Origin: Moritella sp. JT01
GTDB lineage: Bacteria; Pseudomonadota; Gammaproteobacteria; Enterobacterales; Moritellaceae
NCBI RefSeq assembly: GCF_001574435.1
Contig: NZ_LOCN01000001.1
Span: 391,801 to 455,800, forward strand
Direction: 5' to 3'
Length of the DNA: 64,000 bases
Positions 7,832 through 44,995 of this stretch are shown one piece after another (the first letter of the stretch is position 1; each line of letters starts with the position of its first letter). A program made the translations under genes and the position numbers. The notes under the pieces are model-generated. The model was not told the DNA's origin. It ran no database searches and saw only the letters and a program-made list of their open reading frames with translations.

Positions 7832-8099
7832 AACGGATAAAAGCATCTACTCATGTTGATTTAAAGGCCGTTACTCATAGATTGGTTATACATATATAAA
7901 TGTATATATAGATTTTTATGTGTTTCACATAGTTATCTTGTTGAAAGCCCTATAAATAGAGTTTATTTGAGTTTTAATGGTATCTTTGCTACCCTGCTAG
8001 GCGTTTTATTACTGGTATCACCATGGTTGTAACTGGTGAACTTTTCGTTTTTACTTTTCGATTAAAAAGTATTGCAGGATATATGCTTAAGCATAATTT
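7832..8099. promoter_or_regulatory. Leader region of the second BCCT gene
   Basis: AT-rich with a TATACATATATAAATGTATATA repeat-like segment and a small perfect palindrome TATGTGTTTCACATA at 7917-7931, a possible operator. The last 60 bases match the region before BCCT copy 1. No gene seen. Confidence 0.35.
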
Positions 8100-9716
8100 A
8101 TGGATAGCTCGTTAAAAAATAATAATTCGTTAAACAAAAATAGTACGTTCAACAAATATAGTATTGACACCACTGACTACCAAGTCGGTCAAGATAACGT
8201 TCAAAAGTGGGGTTTTGATATACATAACCCCGTATTCGGCATTAGCGCTGGCCTCATTTTCTTCTTCCTTTCTGCACTTCTCCTCGTTGACCCAACTACC
8301 GCTAAAGAAACATTAAACAGTGTGAGAAATAACATCATGGCAGATTTTGATGTGTTCTTTATGTGGTCTACTAATTTCTTTGTATTTTTCACTATGGTAT
8401 TGATCTTATCGCCTCTTGGTAAGATCCGTATTGGTGGTGTAGGAGCAAAAGCAGAGCATTCAACCATTTCTTGGATGGCGATGTTATTTGCAGCAGGTAT
8501 GGGGATTGGTCTGTTGTTCTGGGGTGTTGCAGAACCTACTGCTTACTTTACTAACTGGTGGGGAACACCATTTAATGTCGAGCCACTAACGCCAGAAGCA
8601 AAATCGTTAGCACTTGCTGCAACGATTTATAACTGGGGTATCCATGGCTGGGCTATCTACGCTATCGTTGCTTTATCATTGGCTTTCTTTGCTTATAACA
8701 AAGGTCTCCCGTTATCAATTCGTTCGGTGTTCTATCCGATAATTGGTGACAGAGCGTGGGGCTGGGCTGGTCACATTGTTGATATCATGGCTGTGCTTGC
8801 GACGTTATTTGGTCTAGCGACATCGCTTGGCTTGGGCGCGCAACAAGCGGCAAGTGGTATCAATCATGTGTTTGGTATTGATGGTGGCATTGGCTTACAA
8901 TTGATTGTGATTGCCTTTGTGACATTAATTGCGATCTTCTCGGTGATGCGTGGCATTGACGGTGGCGTTAAAGTCTTGAGCAATATCAATATGTTGTTTG
9001 CGTTCGCATTACTTATTTTTGTCATGATCATTGGCTTTGATGTGATCACGGTATCAATTCCTGAAACCTTTATTGCTTATGCACAAAATTTTGTTAGTTT
9101 AAGTAACCCTCATGGTCGTGATGATACAGCGTGGATGCATGGTTGGACTGTATTCTATTGGGCGTGGTGGATTTCATGGTCACCATTCGTCGGTATGTTC
9201 ATTGCGCGTATTTCTAAAGGCCGTACAGTACGTGAGTTCCTTTGCGCTGTGATCTTTATTCCAACGTTAGTCACACTTGTGTGGATGGCGACGTTCGGTG
9301 GTATTGCTATCGATCAAGTTGTTAATAAAGTCGGTGAATTGGGTACCAATGGTTTAACTGATATTTCACTGTCTTTATTCCAGGTATACGATGCACTGCC
9401 GTTTGGTGATGTGTTATCAGTATTATCGATCATCTTAGTATTAATCTTCTTCATTACGTCATCTGACTCTGGCTCACTTGTGATCGACAGCATCACATCG
9501 GGCGGTAAGATTGACGCGCCAGTGCCACAACGTATTTTCTGGGCAACTGTAGAAGGTACAATTGCGGGTGTTATGCTATGGGTGGGTGGTACGGAAGTTC
9601 TACAAGCGCTGCAAGCTGGTGTTGTAACAACGGCATTACCATTTACGTTTGTATTGCTAATCATGTGTGTCAGCCTCATTAAAGGTCTGAACTCAGAGCG
9701 TCATTTATACAAGTAA
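8100..9716 (+). CDS. BCCT family betaine/choline/carnitine-type transporter (copy 2)
   Basis: A 538-residue close paralogue of the gene at 5566, aligned without visible gaps over nearly its whole length. It keeps the canonical BCCT substrate-site helix FYWAWWISWSPFVG, like well-studied glycine-betaine carriers, whereas copy 1 has changed two of the tryptophans. ATG 8100 is the only possible start because an in-frame TAA lies just upstream. The gene is monocistronic between its own leader and the terminator at 9806. A tandem duplication produced the pair, with the nitrilase gene in between. Confidence 0.93.
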   Translation: MDSSLKNNNSLNKNSTFNKYSIDTTDYQVGQDNVQKWGFDIHNPVFGISAGLIFFFLSALLLVDPTTAKETLNSVRNNIMADFDVFFMWSTNFFVFFTMVLILSPLGKIRIGGVGAKAEHSTISWMAMLFAAGMGIGLLFWGVAEPTAYFTNWWGTPFNVEPLTPEAKSLALAATIYNWGIHGWAIYAIVALSLAFFAYNKGLPLSIRSVFYPIIGDRAWGWAGHIVDIMAVLATLFGLATSLGLGAQQAASGINHVFGIDGGIGLQLIVIAFVTLIAIFSVMRGIDGGVKVLSNINMLFAFALLIFVMIIGFDVITVSIPETFIAYAQNFVSLSNPHGRDDTAWMHGWTVFYWAWWISWSPFVGMFIARISKGRTVREFLCAVIFIPTLVTLVWMATFGGIAIDQVVNKVGELGTNGLTDISLSLFQVYDALPFGDVLSVLSIILVLIFFITSSDSGSLVIDSITSGGKIDAPVPQRIFWATVEGTIAGVMLWVGGTEVLQALQAGVVTTALPFTFVLLIMCVSLIKGLNSERHLYK

Positions 9717-11046: not shown

Positions 11047-11637
11047 ATGAAAATTTTAGCGTTGGTATTTGATGATTATGAAACATTGGATTTACATGGG
11101 CCAATTGAGATGTTTGGCCATATGGAAAATGTAGAAATAAAACTCGTTGGTGCTAAATATATAACGAGAAGCTATCAAGGACCAAGAGTCGTTACAGATG
11201 CTAATTTAGATGCTGTGACTCCATGTGATCTGCTTATTATTCCTGGTGGTTTAGGAACTCGAAAGCTGGTCGAAGATCAAACATTGATGATCTGGTTACA
11301 AAAACAGGAAAAAGTGTCCGCAAAGGTATTTTCTATTTGTACTGGTTCAGCTTTATTGGCTCAAGCAGGCATATTGGACGGGATCCAAGCGACGACAAAC
11401 AAGATGGCTTATAATTGGGTGACGAGTTTATCAAATAAAGTGTATTGGCAGTCTAGTGCTCGTTGGGTTGATGATGGCAAGTTTTTGACTTCTTCAGGTG
11501 TCTCCGCGGGCACTGATGCCGCGCTTTTCTATATACAGCAGATCAAAGGTAAGTCTGAGGCTAAACGTATTGAGCATTTGACTGAGTACCATTGGAATGA
11601 CGACGCGACTAATGACCCTTATGCTGTTATGAGCTGA
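11047..11637 (+). CDS. DJ-1/PfpI family protein
   Basis: A 196-residue protein with a flavodoxin-like DJ-1/PfpI fold. IIPGGLGTRKL and the nucleophile elbow FSICTGSALLAQAG (Cys98) are diagnostic, and Glu21 is in the usual acidic position. It resembles the isonitrile hydratase / AraC N-terminal-domain branch, but has no DNA-binding part. Possible roles are a small-molecule hydratase or glyoxalase-like enzyme; the exact reaction cannot be assigned. It follows the LysE gene and probably shares its transcript. Confidence 0.82.
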   Translation: MKILALVFDDYETLDLHGPIEMFGHMENVEIKLVGAKYITRSYQGPRVVTDANLDAVTPCDLLIIPGGLGTRKLVEDQTLMIWLQKQEKVSAKVFSICTGSALLAQAGILDGIQATTNKMAYNWVTSLSNKVYWQSSARWVDDGKFLTSSGVSAGTDAALFYIQQIKGKSEAKRIEHLTEYHWNDDATNDPYAVMS

Positions 11638-31210: not shown

Positions 31211-31860
31211 AAGCAGTCCCTTGATTGCGAAGTATAAAAAGAAATATCATTGGTACCGTTGTTATGGCATATCTCGTGCCATATTTTTTGTACTTTAAAA
31301 ACATAGATTTATTTTTTTTGTTGTTTTTTTTTTGTTAAATCGATCGCATTTTAAGAATTAATTTTCGCAAAATGCAATTTTAATTCGCAGTTTGCAAAGA
31401 ACACAATGGCTTGTTAATTTGTTTTTATTTGCTTGTTAGCCAACGCGATAGAATGTCGTGATGAGTTTGGTTATTGCGTGGTTGAAGAGTTCATTTATAA
31501 AACCAGTATTAATTCATTAATCATTCAGTTTGCAGCTTAGATCACATTTATAAATGAGCTGGGTTTTATGTAATTCAGAGCGCTAATATAGCGATTTAGA
31601 CGATTAAACATGATCCAGTTAACAGTGTCTTTTATGTAATTATTTAAAGATCATGTAAATACGCCCTGCTTTGGTGATCTCCCTCATAAAAATAGGCCAC
31701 TCATTTTTTTCTCAGCCTTTTTCATCCTCCTTAAATTAACACGGGGTGGAGGAGGTCAGTTATTTGAAAATTCTTTAGTATGAATTTGTCTTCTGAGCCA
31801 ATCCTATCTTGGTCACAGGCTCGAAAAATGACACCAAACTCATTCAAGGATTTAGATTAT
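31211..31860. promoter_or_regulatory. lamB upstream region
   Basis: About 650 bases: the LruC promoter region to the left, copy B of the 104-bp element, a CRP-like site (31527-31549), and MalT-type boxes close to lamB. At 31746-31755 GTGGAGGAGG matches nine of ten MalT-box positions, and at about 31723 the reverse strand carries GAGGATGAAA. The open frame extends 27 codons above the chosen lamB start but is non-coding by signal peptide logic. Confidence 0.6.
31521..31624 (+). repeat. 104-bp element, copy B (upstream of lamB)
   Basis: Gap-free match to 25345-25448 (77 of 104 by my count). It lies about 240 bases before the lamB start and contains a CRP-like half site TAGATCACATTT. The two copies are direct repeats that flank the block from the EF-hand gene to the LruC gene. 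Confidence 0.75.
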
Positions 31861-33099
31861 ATGAAAAACTTAAATCGTGTTGCGATTGCTGTATCAGCAG
31901 CCTTACTTTCTTCTGCTGCAGGCGCTGTTGATTTTAATGGTTACATGCGAGCAGGTACTGGTATTAGCGGAAATAATGGCGAAAATATTAGTTTTGAGAA
32001 AAACAAAATTGGTCGTTTAGGTAATGAAAATGATCTTTATGCTGAGTTTGGTTTCCGCCAAGAACTACCAAAAATAACCGGAATGGAAGATCAAACTTGG
32101 ATTGTTGACGCCATGATCGCGCAGGGCAACTCAGGTAATAATGGTTGGGAAGACGGTGACTTCAACGTGGCTCAATTTAACGTACAAGCGACGGGATTGA
32201 TCGCGAGCGATAAAGAAGCAACGATGTGGGCGGGTAAACGTTATTACCAACGTAAAGATATTCACATTACTGATTTTTACTACTTAAATACCTCAGCGGG
32301 TGCTGGTGGTGGTATTGAAAACTTAACCGTCGGTCCTGGTAAATTGTCTGCAGCTTGGATGCTCGATGAAGGTAGTCAAGCGAGTACGAATGGCTTATCA
32401 CAAGACAGCTCATGGTCTAATGATTCCCAGGTAAATGGTAATATTTTTGATGTCCGTTATTCAGGTCTTGAATTATGGAGTGGTGCGAATTTAGAAGTCG
32501 CTGCGATTTATAATTTTGCCAATGAGAAAGCAGAGCAGACTTTAGAGGCTGATGATGGCGTGATGTTAACGGCTATTTTACAACAGGGATTAAGCAACGG
32601 TTTTAACCAAACCGTATTGCAATATGGTACCAGTTCTTATGGTGCTCAAATGGCTGACTTAGGCAGTGGTGCTTGGTTTGACCGCTCTGGAAAACAAAAT
32701 GATGCGACAGGTTACCGCGTGATCAACTGGGGCGTGGTTAGTGTTGGCGATAAGATCGAAGTAGGCCATCAATTAATGTATGCAAATTCTACTGATGTAG
32801 GCTTGGCCAAAGAAGAGCATGAGCTGTTCAGTGTTGTGGTACGTCCGATGTACAAATGGAACCAGAACATGAAAACCATTTTGGAATTAGGTGTGTTCTC
32901 TGAATCACAAGGTTCTACAGATAAAGGTGGCAGTAAAGCGACCATTGCACAAGCATGGTCAATGGGTGAAAGTTTCTGGGCTAGACCTGAACTGCGCGTA
33001 TTCGCGTCATACATCACAGATGATGAAGGGACGACTTTGGGATCAAGTAAAGGCGACAGCGACTATACTATAGGTATGCAAGTTGAAGCTTGGTTCTAA
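31861..33099 (+). CDS. lamB: Maltoporin
   Basis: About 412 residues from ATG 31861, chosen because the signal peptide MKNLNRVAIAVSAALL ending AGA starts here and AAGG lies ten bases upstream. The mature protein begins VDFNGYMRAGTG, the typical LamB start, and has alternating strands rich in Trp/Tyr (WAGKRYYQRKDIHITDFYY is a strong LamB motif), ending in an aromatic EAWF tail. It forms the trimeric 18-strand outer-membrane pore for maltodextrins. The MalT boxes upstream indicate regulation by MalT and CRP. Confidence 0.95.
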   Translation: MKNLNRVAIAVSAALLSSAAGAVDFNGYMRAGTGISGNNGENISFEKNKIGRLGNENDLYAEFGFRQELPKITGMEDQTWIVDAMIAQGNSGNNGWEDGDFNVAQFNVQATGLIASDKEATMWAGKRYYQRKDIHITDFYYLNTSAGAGGGIENLTVGPGKLSAAWMLDEGSQASTNGLSQDSSWSNDSQVNGNIFDVRYSGLELWSGANLEVAAIYNFANEKAEQTLEADDGVMLTAILQQGLSNGFNQTVLQYGTSSYGAQMADLGSGAWFDRSGKQNDATGYRVINWGVVSVGDKIEVGHQLMYANSTDVGLAKEEHELFSVVVRPMYKWNQNMKTILELGVFSESQGSTDKGGSKATIAQAWSMGESFWARPELRVFASYITDDEGTTLGSSKGDSDYTIGMQVEAWF

Positions 33100-33291: not shown

Positions 33292-34368
33292 TTATGTATC
33301 AAAATCCTGATGGTTAAACGATTTATGTGTATAAGGCGAGGACATAGCAAGTAAAATCGCACCGTAATCTAAGTTGAACTGTACCTTTTGGCCGACGAGC
33401 AAGGATTCTCCAGATGTTTCAATAACCAGATGATCACTGGTTGATGAAACAATTTTTATGCCTGCTGGCGGTTTAAGTCCTGAAATATGGACATCTAGGC
33501 GACCTAATGCGATCAGCGCTTGTGACACATCCCCTCTATTTGGGATGGCTTGTTTTTCTCCAAAGGCATTTTTGCCTCGCTCACCCCAAGGTAAAGACGG
33601 TTTTATTTTTGACTCAATAACTTCGGCCGTGAGCGTGATGGCATCGGTAAACAATCCTTCGATAGGCTCTTGATATAATGGTTCGCAACCGAGGAAAATG
33701 GCTTCACCTATTCGTAGGTTGTTAATACGGCTGTTTTTACCATGATTTACTGCCCAACTAATCGAGGCTGAATTACCGCCTGAGATAATGTCTAACTGAA
33801 TAGAAAATGCTTCTTCGACTTCATTTGCAAGTGCAGACAGTTGAGACATTTTGTCATTATCAGGTGATATACCATAGCGGCAGGCCAAATTTGTACCTAT
33901 GCCTTTTATTACTATGTTCGGTAAATTAATGATCTTACCGATAAATGCCAATAAATTGTTCGGCATTACGCCTTCCCGCAGATCCCCTAGCTCGACCATG
34001 ATGATAATGCCATGGATAATATTTGTTTGGTTAGCAATAAGGGATAGTTGTTCAATTACAGCTATTTCACTGTTAAGGCTGATATTACAATACTTAACAA
34101 CGTTTGAAGCCTGACTTAACATAGGTGTACGGATCAGCATAGTCGGTAATGACATACCCGACTTCCTCATCTTTTCAATATTCTCGACACGGGAATCCGC
34201 AATCATATGCGCCCCTGCGCTAATCAAAGTATTAGCAATGATAGGGTGGCCTAAACACACTTTGGTGACGGGGGTTACCGATATGCCTTTATGATTTAAT
34301 CGATTTATCAATGTTTGAGTATTATGGTAAATTTTAGCGCAGTTGATGTCTACCCTAGGGTAGTTCAA
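33292..34368 (-). CDS. Alanine/ornithine racemase-family PLP enzyme
   Basis: A 358-residue fold-type III PLP protein. Lys36 in PVTKVCLGHP is the cofactor lysine; the family marks MIADSRVENIEK, VELGDLREGVMPNNL and ISGGNSAS are clear. It most resembles the ornithine-racemase-like branch (single-domain alanine racemase relatives) and should racemise an amino acid in the cytoplasm. Its start overlaps the stop of the DUF1611 gene by four bases, so the pair is translationally coupled. The substrate is not predictable from the sequence. Confidence 0.8.
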   Translation of the reverse strand: MNYPRVDINCAKIYHNTQTLINRLNHKGISVTPVTKVCLGHPIIANTLISAGAHMIADSRVENIEKMRKSGMSLPTMLIRTPMLSQASNVVKYCNISLNSEIAVIEQLSLIANQTNIIHGIIIMVELGDLREGVMPNNLLAFIGKIINLPNIVIKGIGTNLACRYGISPDNDKMSQLSALANEVEEAFSIQLDIISGGNSASISWAVNHGKNSRINNLRIGEAIFLGCEPLYQEPIEGLFTDAITLTAEVIESKIKPSLPWGERGKNAFGEKQAIPNRGDVSQALIALGRLDVHISGLKPPAGIKIVSSTSDHLVIETSGESLLVGQKVQFNLDYGAILLAMSSPYTHKSFNHQDFDT

Positions 34369-35522
34369 GACGTTAACGTCATTTTGCGTTCTAGGTGGGG
34401 ATAAGCAGAAGAAACGATTTGTACAAGGTGGTCTGTTGGTTGGGATAGCGCGTCGGTAACTGGTATCCTTAATCGAGTTGCGAAGTCATCAATCGAGTCT
34501 AGTGTTTCCTGCGAGGACATATCTTCATGATTAAGCGTTAAGCCAATCACGTTGGTATCTGAAAATGTTTCAATAAGATTTATTTCTGACGCGACTGAAG
34601 GCATCAGTGCTTTAGGGAAATCAGCACGGTATAAACGTTTAGGCGCATGTTGTAAAATGACACTTGTTGGGCAGCTGCCGCGAAGTATAAAAGAACTAGT
34701 AGAAAATGCGGGGTGACTCAATGATCCTTGTCCTTCAATAATGATCAGGTCTGGATTTTCTTGTTCGTACGCTTTGACGATGATCGCTTCTAGTTCACCT
34801 GCACAAAATTGAGAAGGAACTGCATCTAACGCAACACCATAGGGTGCGCCTTGAATAATGCCAGTTTGCCCTGTTGCAATCATGACAACGTTAAGCCCTT
34901 TTTCTCGTAGTGCTTGAGTTAATATTGTGGCTGTTGTCCGTTTTCCGATAGCACAATCGGTTCCCATAATTGCGATACGTGGACATTTTACATTATGTAT
35001 TTCGCCGCTGAACGTCTGTAATTCTTCTTTGTTTTTAGGTTTTCGGATATCTAAAATACTGACATTGTGTTTTATGCTCGCCGCTAAAAAAGTAGGGTCC
35101 TCGCTTAAGAATTCATGTAATCCATTAACTATATTCATCTTTAATGACATAGCATCTAAAATAATCGTTTTTTCAGCATCGGATAACAAACCACTTGATG
35201 GTGCAATCCCAAAAATGAAGTAGTCAGGAATTGTGCCTGCATGTGTTAGTGCTGCTTCCATGTTGGTCAAAATAGGGATGTCATTTGTTCCTTCATTCAG
35301 CACTTCACCTGAATTTAAACCTGCCGTTTTGCTATCAATCACAGAGAGAATGCGATAGTTGTGAGAATGTCTAACAAGACCATTCGCTGTTTTACCATCA
35401 ATTTTGCCAAAGTGACCTTCACAATAAATAATCGCAGTGGGTATTACGGAATCGTTCGTTTCTGTGTTTTTTGTTTTAGTAAAAGGAAAGATATTCGTTA
35501 AATTCTGAGTTGAATCAGACAT
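34365..35522 (-). CDS. DUF1611 family protein, possible D-amino-acid N-acyltransferase
   Basis: A 385-residue protein with an N-terminal Rossmann-like half and a C-terminal P-loop half (GTDCAIGKRT, residues 187-196, then PDLIIIEGQGSLSHPA). DUF1611 includes DgcN, a D-glutamate N-acetyltransferase known from marine bacteria. The first ~20 residues are polar and variable. It is the first gene of a two-gene operon with the racemase and diverges from a BCCT transporter. I infer action on a D-amino acid; the acyl donor and substrate are unknown. Confidence 0.75.
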   Translation of the reverse strand: MSDSTQNLTNIFPFTKTKNTETNDSVIPTAIIYCEGHFGKIDGKTANGLVRHSHNYRILSVIDSKTAGLNSGEVLNEGTNDIPILTNMEAALTHAGTIPDYFIFGIAPSSGLLSDAEKTIILDAMSLKMNIVNGLHEFLSEDPTFLAASIKHNVSILDIRKPKNKEELQTFSGEIHNVKCPRIAIMGTDCAIGKRTTATILTQALREKGLNVVMIATGQTGIIQGAPYGVALDAVPSQFCAGELEAIIVKAYEQENPDLIIIEGQGSLSHPAFSTSSFILRGSCPTSVILQHAPKRLYRADFPKALMPSVASEINLIETFSDTNVIGLTLNHEDMSSQETLDSIDDFATRLRIPVTDALSQPTDHLVQIVSSAYPHLERKMTLTS

Positions 35523-35851
35523 AATATTACCTAGTGCTTTAAGGCTTAGGAGGGCGACTGAAAAGTGCCGATATACAACGTCGGAAAATATGAGAAGTCC
35601 CTACTAAGCGGTAGGGGGGGGACATATACCGTAACATAGTTAACATATTAATGTGGATATATTAACAATTGACTTTTGGTTTATAGTCATGGTGGTTATT
35701 AGAGAAAATCTAATTTACCTACCTGTATTCATTATCGGTATTTTTAAGTGGTTTAATCTTAAAATTCAATGTTTTATGTTGAATTGACTTGCGTAAATTA
35801 TATTTAGGTAGAGTATGTGTCTTTTAGTTACACTACTAGGCTATTTAAATC
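35523..35851. promoter_or_regulatory. Divergent promoter region between DUF1611 and BCCT copy 3
   Basis: No gene. It contains a near-perfect palindrome GTTAACATAT / ATATATTAAC (35639-35666), suitable as an operator shared by both directions, and a run of seven or more G near 35614. One regulator could control both the racemase operon and the transporter. Confidence 0.45.
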
Positions 35852-37414
35852 ATGTTAAAAACTTTGCTGTTGGGAGATCCGACAAAAAACTCTCCCTCAA
35901 TTGATTGGTTATCAATATTAGTATCCTCTTTCTTTGTTTTTATTGTTATTGGTAATATAGTCATTTATCCAGAAGCCGTTAATGATTTTTCATTAATGAT
36001 CATGGATGTACTTTTAATAAAATTTGGTTCTGTTTATTTATTCTTAGGAATAATTGTTTCTTTATTTTTACTCTGGCTTGCGTTTGGGAAATACGGTGAT
36101 GTGGTTCTTGGCGGCTCGTCAAAAAGTATAGAGTTCTCGACGTTTAGTTGGGCGTCTATGATTTTCTGTGCCGGGATTGGTTCCAGTCTTTTTTACTGGG
36201 CATCTATTGAAGTTATTTACCATTATATATCACCTCCTTATGGGTTGGAGGCCGGTTCTCAAGCCGCTGCTTCTGTTGGGATGGAATATGCTCTCTATTT
36301 TTGGGGGTTACCTGGGTGGTCTATTTATACTTTATGCTCAATTCCTATTGCTTATTCTTTTCATGTAATGAAGAGACCATATTTAACAATAAGCTCAGTA
36401 TGTCATTCAATTATCGGGTCGAATGAAAGAAGCTGGAAAGCAAGAGTTATCAATATTATCTTCTCAGTCTCACTGATCCTTGCCTCTGGTGCTTCAATTT
36501 CATTAAGTGTCCCACTCATTTCTAATATATTTAGTCAGCTATTCAATATTGAACATAACTTTTCGCTCGATATTTTTGTGATTTTAATAACAACTATCAT
36601 TTTTTCTATCAGTCTTATGTTAGGACTTAAAAATGGTATTAAACGCTTAAGTAATATGAATGTGATCCTGTTATTCTCTTTTGTATTGTTTGTTTTTATT
36701 GCAGGGCCGACGGTATTTATTTTTAACTTTGGGCTTGAAAGTTTAGGGGCGATGTTCAGTAATTACATAAAAATGAGCACCTGGACATCCAGTTTTGGTC
36801 AATCTGATTTCCCGTTTAAATGGACTGCATTTTATCTAGCATGGTGGTTTGTTTATTCTCCATTTGTGGCTATTTTCATTGCGAAAATATCAAAAGGAAG
36901 AACGATTAAACAAATACTTATCACTGGAACCTTGATCGGAAGTCTATCTTCTTGGTTATGTATTATTGTTCTGGGTGGCTATACTATCAATTTAAATATT
37001 TTTGATATTGCTGATACAGTCAGTGTACTCCAATCCACAAATGCAAGTACGGCCATTATAAGTATATATAATAATTTACCTGGGTTTAAAATTGTTATAG
37101 CTGTTATCGCGATCATCTGCATTATATCTCAGGCATCAACGTTTGATTCTGTTTCCTATGTTCTTGCTTTATCCTCTTGCAAAGAGATAAAAGAAAATGA
37201 AGAGCCTAAAAATCTTCATAAATTCTTGTTTTCATTTTTAATCTCGATTATTCCTCTTGGTTTTGTTTTTATTGGTGGTTTAAATATACTCCAGACATCA
37301 TTAATATTGGCTTCTGTACCCATTGTTTTAATTTATATTTTAATGTTGGTTTCTTTTCTTAAGGATATAAAAAATAAAGACACCGCCAGCGTATCTCATT
37401 CAGACGAGAATTAA
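35852..37414 (+). CDS. BCCT family transporter (third, divergent type)
   Basis: A 520-residue, 12-segment membrane protein with BCCT motifs (WASMIFCAGIGSSLFYWASIE, AWWFVYSPFVAIFIAKISKGRT, QASTFDSVSYVLA). It differs clearly from the pair at 5.6-9.7 kb. The substrate-site helix reads FYLAWWFVYSPF, and the first TM helix has GIGSS instead of GMGIG, which suggests a sodium-independent or unusual substrate mode as in carnitine-type antiporters (inference). Its divergence from the racemase operon suggests it imports that pathway's substrate. Confidence 0.88.
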   Translation: MLKTLLLGDPTKNSPSIDWLSILVSSFFVFIVIGNIVIYPEAVNDFSLMIMDVLLIKFGSVYLFLGIIVSLFLLWLAFGKYGDVVLGGSSKSIEFSTFSWASMIFCAGIGSSLFYWASIEVIYHYISPPYGLEAGSQAAASVGMEYALYFWGLPGWSIYTLCSIPIAYSFHVMKRPYLTISSVCHSIIGSNERSWKARVINIIFSVSLILASGASISLSVPLISNIFSQLFNIEHNFSLDIFVILITTIIFSISLMLGLKNGIKRLSNMNVILLFSFVLFVFIAGPTVFIFNFGLESLGAMFSNYIKMSTWTSSFGQSDFPFKWTAFYLAWWFVYSPFVAIFIAKISKGRTIKQILITGTLIGSLSSWLCIIVLGGYTINLNIFDIADTVSVLQSTNASTAIISIYNNLPGFKIVIAVIAIICIISQASTFDSVSYVLALSSCKEIKENEEPKNLHKFLFSFLISIIPLGFVFIGGLNILQTSLILASVPIVLIYILMLVSFLKDIKNKDTASVSHSDEN

Positions 37415-37446
37415 CGTCAATAAGTTGTAGTTGTTTAGTGAATTTG

Positions 37447-37470
37447 GCCTCCTCGTTGGAGGCTTTTTTA
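37447..37470 (+). terminator. Terminator of BCCT copy 3
   Basis: Stem GCCTCC / GGAGGC (37447-37452, 37458-37463), loop TCGTT, followed by six T. Confidence 0.9.
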
Positions 37471-37557
37471 ATCGTGAGGTAAAACCGTCAATATGCGACA
37501 GAACTGGCCGTTTACGGTAAGTACTCAGTCTTTTGATATTTTTCTGCAGCTGGCGAG

Positions 37558-39630: not shown

Positions 39631-40740
39631 TTAGCGCGTCGTTTCTTTATGCAAACGCTGGCAAGCTAAACCATCTTTATGGAACAAGTGGCAGCGGTGC
39701 GCAGGAATACCAATATCTAGCTTCTCACCCGCATCTATCGACAGGGTATCAGCGACGCGATAAATCACATCTTCGTCACAGCCTTCAATGTGCAAATAGA
39801 CTTGTGTTTCATTACCCAATTTTTCTACCACAATGGTTTCACCCGCAATGACGATATCAGCATCTTCAGCTGGCACTAAGTGTTCAGGGCGAATACCGAG
39901 GATCATTTCATCACCGGCATTCACCGTTTTCCCGTCAACGGGGATCCAAATACTCTGGCAATTCGGTAACAGTACTTCGACACGTTCAGCTTCGACAGCT
40001 TGGATATGTACGTTAATGAAGTTCATTTTTGGTGAACCAATAAAACCTGCCACAAAAAGATTTTTAGGGTAATGATAAATCTCTAATGGTGCCCCGACCT
40101 GGGCCACATCACCACCGTCGAGTACCACGATCTTATCGGCCATCGTCATCGCTTCAACTTGATCGTGGGTCACGTAGATCATCGTACAGCCCAATTGTTT
40201 GTGTAGTTTGGCTAATTCAATGCGCATTTTTACGCGTAACGCCGCATCTAAATTAGACAGCGGCTCATCTAATAAAAATACTTTTGGTTGTGATACCAAG
40301 GTACGACCAATCGCTACACGTTGACGTTGCCCACCGGATAAAGACTTCGGTTTACGATCTAATAATGGTGTTAGTTGCAGAATGTCAGCGGCATGTTTAA
40401 CGCGATCTTTGATGAGCTGTTTATCTGCTTTCGCTAATTTTAAGCCAAATGACATGTTATCGGTTAAATCTAAGTGAGGGTAAAGGGCATAAGATTGGAA
40501 TACCATACCGACACCACGTTTTGAGGGTTCGACATCGTTCATGCGTTTGCCGCCAATAAATAAGTCCCCCGAGGTGATATCTTCAAGGCCTGCAATGCAA
40601 CGGAGTAAGGTTGACTTGCCACAACCTGATGGACCAACGAAAACCACAAATTCACCATCATTTATTTCGAGATCTACGTTTTTAGAGATAAGTACATCGT
40701 CATATGCTTTACATACATTTTTTAACGTGACATTTGCCAT
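39631..40740 (-). CDS. malK: Maltose/maltodextrin ABC transporter ATPase
   Basis: A 369-residue ABC ATPase. Walker A is GPSGCGKST (36-44), the signature is [13 protein letters not shown], Walker B is [14 protein letters not shown], with His in [13 protein letters not shown]. The C-terminal ~130 residues form the regulatory OB-type domain found in MalK, which binds MalT in enteric bacteria. It energises MalFG uptake. It is divergent from malE, sharing the 396-base regulatory region. The start has AAGGA eight bases ahead. Confidence 0.95.
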
Positions 40741-41136
40741 CTCGCGAGTCCTTTTTATGATTAATTATAATATCTTACACAGCATTATTCGATGTTGATA
40801 GTGTGTTTTATATGCCCTTATACTGCATCATCCTTGGCAAAAACTTTTAGGGTGGAGAAGACAGGAGGAGTGCATGGATCACATTTTAACAATAGCTGTC
40901 TAATTATTACTCCAAATAGGTACTTGATCGCGTTTTAGTGTGCGAGCCATCGCATTTTTATCGCCTTTATTAGCCAACTAAGTAAAATTAATCGTTCAAG
41001 TTCACGCTTTTTGCTTTGCAGGGGTTAGGCGTAGGATAAAGGATGATGTGAGCAGTGGGCTTTTGTATGACTATATCCTCCAACGCAGACAACTTGTCTG
41101 GTAAGTTTGAAAGCTAATTTAATAAGGATATAAGTG
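40741..41136. promoter_or_regulatory. malK-malE divergent control region
   Basis: About 400 bases with several MalT-like boxes: GTGGAGAAGA at about 40852, CAGGAGGAGT at about 40862, AAGGATGATG at about 41039 and GGAGGATA on the reverse strand near 41085 (each only a partial match to GGGGA(T/G)GA(A/G)G). A CRP half-site GGATCACATTTT is at about 40876. The arrangement mirrors the enteric malEp/malKp region. Confidence 0.55.
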
Positions 41137-42312
41137 ATGAGAAAAACCTTAACCGCGGTAGCACTGCTAACTGCAATGAACTCTTTTTCTGCTTTTGCTG
41201 CTATTGAAGAAGGCCAGTTAACAATTTGGATTAACGGTGACAAAGGTTACAACGGTCTTGCTGAAGTAGGTAAGCAGTTTGAAGCTGATACCGGTATCAA
41301 GGTGACGGTTTCGCATCCAGATAGCTTACAAGACAAGTTCCCTCAAGTTGCTGCTACGGGTGATGGTCCTGATATCGTATTTTGGGCTCATGATCGTTTT
41401 GGTGGTTATGCTCAGGCGGGTTTATTAGCCGAAATTAAACCATCAAAAGAGTTAAAAGACAGCATGATTGACTTTACTTGGGATGCGGTTAAATACAAGG
41501 GTAAATATATCGGCTATCCAGTGGCGGTTGAATCACTCTCACTTATCTACAATAAAGATTTAATTAAAACCCCACCAAAAAATTGGGAAGATATTGCAGC
41601 ATTAGACAAGCAGCTTAAAACCCAAGGTAAGTCTGCGATTATGTGGAATCTAAAAGAACCGTACTTCACTTGGCCGCTAATGGCGGCTGACGGTGGTTAT
41701 GCCTTTAAAGCCAATGCTAACGGGTATGATGTGAAAGATGCGGGTGTAAATAATACGGGCGTTAAAAGCAGTATGCAGTTAGTGAAAAAGCTATTGGCCG
41801 ATAACGTCATTTCACCCGATATGGATTACTCGGTATCAGAATCTGAGTTTATCAAAGGTAATGTGGCATTAACGATTAATGGTCCGTGGGCATGGGGCAA
41901 TATAGACAAGTCTGAGATTAATTATGGCGTTGCGCAGTTACCTAAATTTAATGGTCAGCACTCTAAACCGTTTGTCGGTGTATTAACGGCGGGTATTAGT
42001 ACTGCGTCACCAAATAAAGACTTAGCGGTTGAGTTTATCGAAAACTATTTATTGACCAATGAAGGTCTGGCTACAGTGAATAACGACAAACCATTAGGTG
42101 CCGTTGCGCTGACATCATTCCAACAACAATTGTCGAGTGATAGCCGTATTGCGGCGACGATGGACAATGCGATGAACGGTGAGGTGATGCCGAATATCCC
42201 ACAAATGAATGCATTTTGGGGCGCGACTAAAAATGCCATCATTAACATTGTTGATGGTCGTCAATCGATTGATGCGGCATTAAGCGATGCAGAAAAACAG
42301 ATGACGAGATAG
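41137..42312 (+). CDS. malE: Periplasmic maltose-binding protein
   Basis: About 391 residues from ATG 41137 (AAGGA eight bases upstream; the GTG at 41134 is one codon earlier). The signal peptide ends in AFA near residue 21. The mature protein starts [19 protein letters not shown], the classical MalE start, and has the aromatic ligand-pocket segments ([41 protein letters not shown]). It delivers maltodextrin to MalFGK2 in the periplasm. Confidence 0.96.
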
Positions 42313-42356
42313 TGTTTTTAAGTACTCCCTGTTGTAGTGATAGGAAGTTATAAAAT

Positions 42357-42381
42357 AAGAGGATAGATTATCTCTCCTCTT
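42357..42381 (+). repeat. Hairpin between malE and malF
   Basis: AAGAGGA and TCCTCTT (42357-42363, 42375-42381) with inner arms AGAT/ATCT form a near-perfect 25-base hairpin. In enteric bacteria, structures at this position allow more MalE than MalF to be made; the same role is likely here. Confidence 0.6.
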
Positions 42382-42454
42382 GCTGTTTATACCCGTTGCA
42401 TTAAATAAATGATCATCTGTTTAGTGTGATAGGTATTATGAGGTAGGTTTTTCC

Positions 42455-44053
42455 ATGCAGACTGTTAAAGTAGCTGAGATTCTGGGTGATACACCAGAAT
42501 CTCAACAGACTTGCGACCAAGTCAATTCTAGATTTTTTTCTCCGCATTTTATTAAATGGTGCACCCTCACACTTATTGGGTTAATGAACGGTTATGCGTC
42601 GGTATTGATGTACTCACGTGGTGAGACGTCATTTGCGGTGTTAACGCTTATTTTAACCTCGTTAGCTTTGTATATTTTTGGTAGTAAAAAGACCTACGCA
42701 CACCGTTATATTTACCCAGGTGTCGCGGGCATGATCTTGTTTATTGTTTTTCCACTGGTATATACGGTGGGTATCGCGTTTACCAATTACAGTGCCAAAA
42801 ACCAACTGTCTTTTGAACGCGCGCAGTCAGTGTTACTTGATAGTACTTATCAAAGTGGTGACAGTTATAAATTTGATTTGTATCGCAGTGAAAATGGTTA
42901 TCGTCTTGCGATTAAAGACGGTGCGCAATTATTAGTGACTGATGAGATAAATTTAACGTTGCCAGCAAACCGACGTTTAGTGCTAACCGCGGCAGATGCC
43001 GTTGTTGGCAGCAAAGCGAAAATAAAAGAAATTATCAAAAACCGCGCCACGTTAAACACGGTGGACTTGGTATTACCCAATGGTAATGAAATTCGCATGA
43101 GCGGGTTACGTAAATTTGCCGCAGTACAACCGCTTTACAGTGTTGAAAGCGACGGGACCACGTTAATTAATAATAAAGATAAAACGGTATTGATCCCGAA
43201 TATGGACACCGGTTTTTATCAAACCATTGATGCCGAAGGTAACTATATTGGCGATCCATTATCACCGGGTTTTACGGTAGTTATCGGTACCGCCAACTTT
43301 GAACGAATTTGGCAAGATGATGGTATTAAAGAACCCTTCATTAGTATTTTCTTTTGGACGATTATTTTCTCTGGATTATCTGTGGTTGCTACTGTGATCA
43401 TCGGGTTGGTGCTGGCGAGTATTGTGCAATGGGAAGCGTTACGCGGCCGTGCTATTTACCGTATGCTGTTAATTTTACCTTACGCCGTACCGTCATTTAT
43501 TTCTATCTTGATTTTCAAAGGGTTATTCAACCAAAGCTTTGGTGAAATTAATATGGTGTTAGAAGCCATGTTCGGTCTGTCGCCAAGTTGGTTCTCGGAT
43601 CCAATCTCGGCTAAAGCCATGGTATTAATGGTTAATATTTGGCTCGGTTTTCCGTACATGATGATCTTAAGCATGGGCATGTTGAAATCAATACCGGATG
43701 ATTTATACGAAGCATCGGCGCTTGATGGTGCAGGACCGCTGCAAAACTTCAAGAACATTACGTTCCCGATGATGATGAAACCATTAATGCCGTTAATGAT
43801 TGCCAGCTTCTCGTTTAACTTTAATAACTTTGTATTGATTCAGCTGTTAACGCAGGGGGGGCCAAACATGATCGGTACCAGTGAACCGGCGGGTTATACC
43901 GATTTGTTAGTCAACTATACCTATCGTATTGCCTTTGAAGGTGCTGGTGGCCAAGACTTTGGTTTAGCCAGTGCAATTACAACGCTTATCTTCTTGTTAG
44001 TGGGTGGTTTAGCGCTCTTTAACTTACGTTTTACCAAGCTGTCAGAAAAATAA
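42455..44053 (+). CDS. malF: Maltose ABC transporter permease MalF
   Basis: A 532-residue inner-membrane protein with eight predicted segments and a large periplasmic loop between the third and fourth (about residues 110-280), as in enteric MalF. The cytoplasmic EAA loop reads YEASALDGAGPLQNFKNITF. It pairs with MalG to form the channel and contacts MalK through the EAA loop. GAGG precedes ATG 42455. It lies between malE and malG, in the standard operon order. Confidence 0.96.
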   Translation: MQTVKVAEILGDTPESQQTCDQVNSRFFSPHFIKWCTLTLIGLMNGYASVLMYSRGETSFAVLTLILTSLALYIFGSKKTYAHRYIYPGVAGMILFIVFPLVYTVGIAFTNYSAKNQLSFERAQSVLLDSTYQSGDSYKFDLYRSENGYRLAIKDGAQLLVTDEINLTLPANRRLVLTAADAVVGSKAKIKEIIKNRATLNTVDLVLPNGNEIRMSGLRKFAAVQPLYSVESDGTTLINNKDKTVLIPNMDTGFYQTIDAEGNYIGDPLSPGFTVVIGTANFERIWQDDGIKEPFISIFFWTIIFSGLSVVATVIIGLVLASIVQWEALRGRAIYRMLLILPYAVPSFISILIFKGLFNQSFGEINMVLEAMFGLSPSWFSDPISAKAMVLMVNIWLGFPYMMILSMGMLKSIPDDLYEASALDGAGPLQNFKNITFPMMMKPLMPLMIASFSFNFNNFVLIQLLTQGGPNMIGTSEPAGYTDLLVNYTYRIAFEGAGGQDFGLASAITTLIFLLVGGLALFNLRFTKLSEK

Positions 44054-44104
44054 GCGACAACAGTAACTGACAGCACTAACCTACAACAAATGAGGAGTAA
44101 CAGT

Positions 44105-44995
44105 ATGGCTATGGTACAAGGAACATCATTAAAATATCGGGTATGGGCTGCCCACCTAGCACTGTGTGCACTGCTGGTGGTGATTATTTTCCCCTTGGTT
44201 ATGGTAGTGGCAATTTCGTTGCGTGAAGGTAACTTTGCGACGGGTGGCATTATTCCGACATCACCGACATTAGATCACTGGCGTTTAGCGTTAGGTTTCT
44301 CGGTAACGAATGCAGATGGCAGTATTACACCGCCGCCATTTCCAGTGTTGTTGTGGTTGTGGAACTCGGTAAAAGTAGCTGCAATATCGTCAGTGATGAT
44401 TGTGGCGTTGTCGACCACGTCTGCGTATGCATTTGCGCGTTTACGTTTTGGTGGTAAAGACACCATTTTAAAAGCGATGATGATCTTCCAGATGTTCCCA
44501 GCAGTATTAGCGCTGGTGGCGCTGTATGCTTTGTTTGATAAGTTAGGGCAGTATATTCCCTTCTTAGGGCTGAATACCCACGGCGGTCTCATCTTTGCTT
44601 ATCTGGGCGGTATTGCACTGCATGTATGGACAATTAAAGGTTACTTCGAGTCGATAGATGGTTCATTAGAAGAAGCGGCTGCATTGGATGGCGCTACGCC
44701 TTGGCAAGCATTCCGTTTGGTATTGTTACCACTGTCAGTGCCCATTCTTGCTGTGGTCTTTATCCTTGCGTTTATTGCAGCGGTAACAGAAGTACCAGTA
44801 GCTTCGTTATTATTGTCTGATGTGAATAACTACACCTTAGCGGTTGGCATGCAGCAGTATTTGTATCCACAAAACTACCTGTGGGGTGACTTTGCAGCGG
44901 CAGCCGTGCTATCGGCATTACCTATTACAGCGGTGTTCTTAATGGCGCAGCGCTGGTTAGTTGGCGGCTTAACGTCGGGTGGTGTGAAAGGCTAG
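44105..44995 (+). CDS. malG: Maltose ABC transporter permease MalG
   Basis: About 296 residues from ATG 44105, which follows GAGGAG; the upstream codons are a frame extension. The product starts MAMVQ as in enteric MalG and remains strongly similar along its length ([44 protein letters not shown], and the final GLTSGGVKG that reaches the MalE-binding pocket). It forms six membrane segments. The transcript ends at the hairpin at 45060. Confidence 0.96.

Follow-up and report, generated by a model that had tools for sequence, protein, structure and literature searches.

What a DUF1611 enzyme and a pyridoxal phosphate (PLP)-dependent racemase accomplish together, and whether a divergently oriented transporter takes part in it, is the question raised by a locus of Moritella sp. 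JT01 (NCBI RefSeq assembly GCF_001574435.1, contig NZ_LOCN01000001.1, positions 391,801 to 455,800 of the forward strand). These 64,000 nucleotides are referred to as the window and their own numbering is used throughout. An initial annotation, made from the sequence, had combined three genes in a possible D-amino acid or betaine pathway. Its description of the locus is borne out in part by the coordinates of the open reading frames (ORFs) and by family scans, with the three ORFs at the claimed positions, the enzyme pair translationally coupled and the BCCT transporter divergent:

33292-34368, minus strand: racemase ORF, 358 amino acids, TTG start; Orr-like PLP racemase of fold type III
34365-35522, minus strand: DUF1611 ORF, 385 amino acids; long-type DUF1611 protein and DgcN homologue with the P-loop GTDCAIGKRTT
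35852-37414, plus strand: BCCT ORF, 520 amino acids, divergent from the enzyme pair

Our analysis shows that the two enzymes constitute a mobile operon to which the transporter does not belong, and it points to a structured leader RNA in front of this operon.

A mobile operon of two enzymes

The TTG start of the racemase gene is located inside the stop of the DUF1611 gene, resulting in a 4-nucleotide overlap (TTGA). The same arrangement of a long DUF1611 gene followed by an Orr-like racemase gene, usually with a 4-nucleotide overlap, recurs in Moritella, Shewanella, Vibrio, Salinivibrio, Rhodobacterales and one Verrucomicrobium, and since an overlap is found in nearly every genome with a long DUF1611, the initially described coupling goes beyond chance. 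The pair is present at 57 loci. Among 299 Pseudomonadota, the racemase adjoins the long DUF1611 in all five further carriers (own genome excluded), and the long DUF1611 is carried by 54 of 246 Rhodobacterales. The position of the pair varies within Moritella and it is also found on plasmids of Vibrio and Rhodobacterales. DUF1611 and the Orr-like racemase are one mobile operon, with exceptions in the Vibrio coralliilyticus plasmid pVs58, which has lead sequence and DUF1611 gene but no racemase gene, in the sister Moritella locus L033, where the racemase is frameshifted (8256-9334) while DUF1611 and leader are intact, and in the genome G1174, where DUF1611 is broken. Unrelated transporters beside the pair everywhere, an outcome that the initial annotation had set against its own proposal, were looked for in the neighbourhoods of the pair loci, in which no transporter at all, no deacylase or amidase and no dehydrogenase is conserved.

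Several pair operons have recurrent companions. In Rhodobacterales, small genes (clusters 7, 3 and 2) are located upstream (L069, 4203-5712 and 13086-13855; L068, 4226-5719; L071, 4188-5762) and a divergent Crp/Fnr regulator is often close by. On four Vibrio plasmids (L066, L067, L073 and L155; ~8083-8474), gspS2, encoding a type II secretion pilotin-like protein, overlaps the racemase gene or closely follows it.

The BCCT gene as recent neighbour

The BCCT protein (416 bits in the family scan), whose closest solved relatives are the dimethylsulfoniopropionate (DMSP) transporter DddT and the carnitine carrier CaiT, had been proposed to import the substrate of the pathway. Its gene lies outside the unit formed by the pair because a segment of 1,709 bp (35837-37545) is precisely missing in L033, where the flanking gene order is the same and the alignment pieces abut at 11222/11223, and because relatives are absent from ten other Moritella genomes (E ≤ 1e-60) and from the other pair loci, the annotated ones of which list no BCCT transporter. 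Despite the missing segment, L033 retains the region upstream of the pair. The GC content of the segment is 33.8%, compared to 40.4% in the window. The BCCT gene is a recent and unrelated neighbour, its link to the pair a coincidence of a single strain, and it was rejected as a member of the unit.

Family relationships of the two enzymes

The racemase belongs to the Ala_racemase_N family (79.5 bits) and is, among NCBIfam models, closest to the ornithine racemase Orr (NF040742), with a full-length score of 366.9 bits that does not reach the cut-off of 480, which identifies it, on the basis of this profile, as a relative of Orr rather than a member. Its AlphaFold model (predicted local distance difference test, pLDDT, 88) has alanine and lysine racemases as top PDB matches and confirms the predicted fold-III barrel. 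Lys 36 is invariant and aligns with the PLP-binding lysine of Orr of the Acetoanaerobium/Clostridium type, as do the equally invariant core motifs; the identity to Acetoanaerobium Orr is ~38%. In contrast to Orr, the window racemase is coupled to DUF1611. Racemases linked to a pair group in a single clade with a support of 0.86, to which neither Acetoanaerobium Orr nor the unpaired relatives belong. One such unpaired Orr-like racemase, in Shinella (L072), has a D-amino acid dehydrogenase, RidA and a 5-guanidino-2-oxopentanoate decarboxylase as neighbours, a context that suggests D-arginine use.

The DUF1611 protein (DUF1611, 233 bits; DUF1611_N, 77 bits) is nearest to the NCBIfam model of DgcN (NF041892), where its score of 163.4 bits stays below the cut-off of 480, and it is by this measure a relative of DgcN and not a member. 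The proposed placement in the DgcN family holds in the sense of homology: its model (pLDDT 84) matches the PDB entries 2obn, 2g0t and 7xrj (DgcN), and the window protein and DgcN have the DUF1611 fold, the P-loop and the IEGQGSLSHP motif in common. The P-loop (GTD..xGK) and IEGQG motifs are invariant in the DUF1611 proteins compared. Within the order, these proteins fall into two groups of ~385-430 residues (69-94% identical to the window protein) and of ~335 residues (27-37%). The latter are of the DgcN type, mostly with an enolase-superfamily protein encoded next downstream. This enolase partner was only seen at loci of the ~335-residue group, whereas the window partner is Ala_racemase_N, so that the neighbourhood comparison upholds the initial view of a PLP racemase replacing the enolase-type partner of DgcN.

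The pair thus resembles DgcN-DgcA of Pseudoalteromonas sp. CF6-2 in the translational coupling of DUF1611 to an amino acid racemase. It differs in the sequence of DUF1611 (~30-37% identity to DgcN and an extra N-terminal region), in the fold-III PLP racemase that takes the place of an enolase-superfamily protein and in the missing DgcR-type LysR regulator; the LysR regulator of DgcN loci is not conserved at pair loci. The DgcN-DgcA pathway is a relative of the pair but not the same pathway. A distant DUF1611 (~30% identity) is also found in jumbo phages of Erwinia and Dickeya (H71-H90), in the records of which neither the leader nor an Orr-like racemase was found, and a phage origin was rejected on these grounds.

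A conserved leader RNA with predicted mutually exclusive folds

Conservation of the 95-105 nucleotides preceding the DUF1611 start codon greatly exceeds that of the flanks, and the conserved parts include the junctions GACUUCU and AGUCGCC. Every close gammaproteobacterial locus contains the motif CUUAGURGGGRC 83-87 nucleotides before the ATG, and diverged forms of the leader precede DUF1611 in L133, L134, L135, L142 and L143. The predicted elements in the window are:

35542..35618, minus strand: leader RNA core (87.4 bits with covariance model R1, E 2.8e-17 across the searched loci)
35599..35616, minus strand: predicted 5' hairpin A (CCCUA/UAGGG), CCCTACTAAGCGGTAGGG, incompatible with P1
35599..35609, minus strand: 5' arm of the predicted long-range helix P1
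35544..35554, minus strand: 3' arm of P1, overlapping the strand that would pair with the Shine-Dalgarno (SD) sequence
35568..35584, minus strand: predicted hairpin P2, inside P1, with both-sided changes in three of four pairs
35529..35550, minus strand: predicted 3' hairpin C, pairing the SD-like AGGU (35529-35532) with the 3' arm of P1; moderately supported

Of the 395 genomes of the order, 15 contain a match to the covariance model, one each and all before a long DUF1611; ten coincide with known pair loci and the other five were checked as lying before DUF1611. No match was obtained at the Rhodobacterales or DgcN loci searched. Rfam 15 contains no match to the leader at E values up to 5 for the window and up to 2 for seven other loci, and as far as this database and the searched literature go, the sequences point to an undescribed structured RNA. 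A coding function was rejected, as in at least 22 of 25 leaders all frames are stopped and no short ORF is conserved. A promoter scan was uninformative.

The palindromic operator, across which pair and transporter were initially thought to diverge, has given way to hairpin A. A repeat search of the intergenic region recovered no strong operator-like palindrome, and the one obvious palindrome at 35599-35616 persists at loci without a BCCT gene.

Fold statistics refer to an alignment of 23 leaders (A2), which was trimmed since RNAalifold recovered hairpin A but not P1 in the unrefined alignment. In P1 and P2, 94.3% of cells are paired, a value biased in favour of P1, which was proposed by eye; five pairs are doubly changed, a number reached in two of 500 shuffles, and slid partners score much lower. 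A pyrimidine-pyrimidine mismatch in P1 (UC, UU or CU) is kept in all 23 leaders. Hairpin A, with 89.4% of cells paired and two doubly changed pairs, shares a strand with P1, and the predicted folds are clearly mutually exclusive. The letters of hairpin C vary by lineage (AAGCCUU/AAGGCUU, AAACCU/AGGUUU, UCCUCU/AGAGGA) while its pairing is kept. Collectively, the alignment argues for a conserved secondary structure with compensatory changes, although few.

Folding predictions of the unliganded leader favour hairpins A and C, with the SD-like sequence paired at a probability of ~0.9 and P1 at ~0.1; the mean SD pairing probability is 0.89, compared to 0.69 for shuffled upstream sequence. The leader of the window is exceptional in that P1 is predicted to dominate above ~20 °C. 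The predicted states show no consistent shift from 4 to 42 °C, and an RNA thermometer was rejected for this reason; a constrained-folding comparison over temperature conflicted with the unconstrained results and was discarded.

Association with stress genes on mobile islands

Stress-related genes recur within ~8 kb of the pair. Outside Moritella, HflK/HflC are found at L036, L040, L053, L054, L067, L069, L128 and L136, and near DUF1611 alone at L156. GroEL is encoded at L056, L068/L145, L073 and L115, DnaK at L036 and L056, aconitase and/or fumarase at L036, L040, L054 and L156, and NhaA or Hsp20 at some pair loci. With L068 and L145 being the same record, such neighbours are found at 12 of 57 pair loci and at L156, compared to none of nine DgcN loci, in counts uncorrected for kinship. 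The HflK/HflC of these islands are a distinct mobile subfamily because HflC sequences from alpha- and gammaproteobacteria share 68-100% identity, with no second copy found in the same genomes (E ≤ 1e-30). This subfamily is found on 19 plasmids, several of which encode cold-shock proteins, AcnA or NhaA close by. In Ruegeria, small genes of clusters 7 and 3 are located upstream of both the DUF1611 operon and hflKC. The subfamily itself was encountered at L036, L040, L053, L054, L067, L069, L128, L136, L156 and L162-L165, on marine plasmids and islands, several with chaperonins.

Proposed function and alternatives

The reading that we favour, at about even chances, describes the operon as a cassette of stress islands in which an amino acid is racemised and its D-form N-acylated, with translation switched by the leader. 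By default, hairpins A and C would form and hide the ribosome site, whereas a putative ligand or factor stabilising P1 and P2 would break both hairpins and turn translation on. PLP racemases require a free α-amino group and cannot use an N-acylated substrate. Racemisation thus likely precedes α-N-acylation: the racemase would convert an L- into a D-amino acid, which DUF1611 would then acylate, pulling the equilibrium forward and yielding a stable N-acyl-D-amino acid as stress metabolite. This order is the reverse of that in DgcN-DgcA and suits synthesis rather than degradation. Among these inferences, support decreases from the translational switch to the stress role and further to the substrate. 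The bolder version, where a new riboswitch class senses a metabolite signalling stress and drives a two-enzyme route to a protective N-acylated D-amino acid encoded on the mobile stress islands of marine hosts, appears unlikely.

Several observations weigh against the favoured reading. The leader is so strongly conserved that covariation is limited and most pairs of P1 are never doubly changed; P1 is a minor state in the folding predictions for most sequences; the hiding of the SD sequence exceeds that in shuffles only moderately (nine of 18 sequences at 0.1 or better, with the leader of the window failing); the pairs of Rhodobacterales and Verrucomicrobium are without leader; and the window locus has no stress genes nearby. 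A leader that is real but read by a protein, a small RNA or temperature instead of a metabolite is a serious though less probable alternative, which would fit the stress-island context, and the strong conservation of primary sequence would also suit a protein site. The predicted states offer little to a temperature sensor, and the occurrence of one leader per genome, solely before the pair operon, suits a dedicated metabolite sensor at least equally.

With respect to the enzymes, the BioD-like P-loop conserved across the whole clade also counts against N-acylation. A profile scan gave a weak hit to BioD, and BioD and cobyrinic acid a,c-diamide synthase also resemble DUF1611 weakly in structure. 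These features would be expected if DUF1611 belonged to the ATP-dependent ligases or transferases of BioD/cobyrinate synthase type, with the product of the racemase or the side chain as its target. DgcN, called an acetyltransferase in the title of PDB entry 7xrj, contains the same P-loop and motifs, so that the P-loop alone does not decide the matter, and we consider such a ligase rather improbable. A similarly doubtful place is held by a catabolic variant of DgcN-DgcA, where the racemase turns an environmental D-amino acid into its L-form and DUF1611 operates on a side branch. The homology to DgcN and the Shinella racemase next to a D-amino acid dehydrogenase and RidA would agree with catabolism, whereas the pair is accompanied by no conserved amidase, dehydrogenase, LysR regulator or transporter, and the established chemistry of PLP racemases excludes an N-acylated substrate. 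Finally, the initial proposal of a D-amino acid or betaine pathway fed by the BCCT protein draws on a divergent adjacency in one genome and on the proximity of this protein to DddT (DMSP) and CaiT (carnitine); in light of a sister strain that has the upstream region of the pair but not the transporter segment, and of ten further Moritella genomes and other pair loci without it, we regard this proposal as very improbable.

Relation to known systems

The favoured reading places the leader next to translational ON riboswitches such as add, the adenine riboswitch of Vibrio, with which it has in common that helices are predicted to exclude each other and that a strand of the core helix is also used by a predicted anti-SD hairpin. 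The core sequence differs, and the leader has no counterpart in Rfam. Found solely before one two-gene operon, the leader would be an RNA sensor tied to an uncharacterised pathway, whose ligand would point to a metabolite of this pathway, while the enzymes would narrow the choice of ligand.

The tLST/LHR heat-resistance locus is a mobile stress-tolerance island. Like it, the islands carrying the pair have moved horizontally and bring additional copies of chaperones and of proteins associated with proteases; they are distinguished by the special HflKC, aconitase, fumarase, NhaA, cold-shock proteins, the pair itself and their marine hosts. The pair provides a marker for a little-described type of marine stress island.

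In the literature searched, DgcN appears only in two papers on D-amino acids (PMC12363236, PMC10845958), and no paper was found that treats both DUF1611 and the racemase. The operon varies the DUF1611-racemase theme in a new way, by employing a racemase of another class, and extends DUF1611 beyond D-glutamate catabolism to a PLP-racemase partner.

Surroundings of the pair in the window

PADLOC matched none of the proteins searched, which comprised those of the pair, the BCCT protein and the products of two upstream genes, and a defence function of the pair was rejected on this basis. In the window, the pair is located between LamB (31780-33099) and MalK/MalE/MalF-like genes (39631-44995), as if inserted into a maltose region, whereas it is sited elsewhere in three other Moritella genomes.

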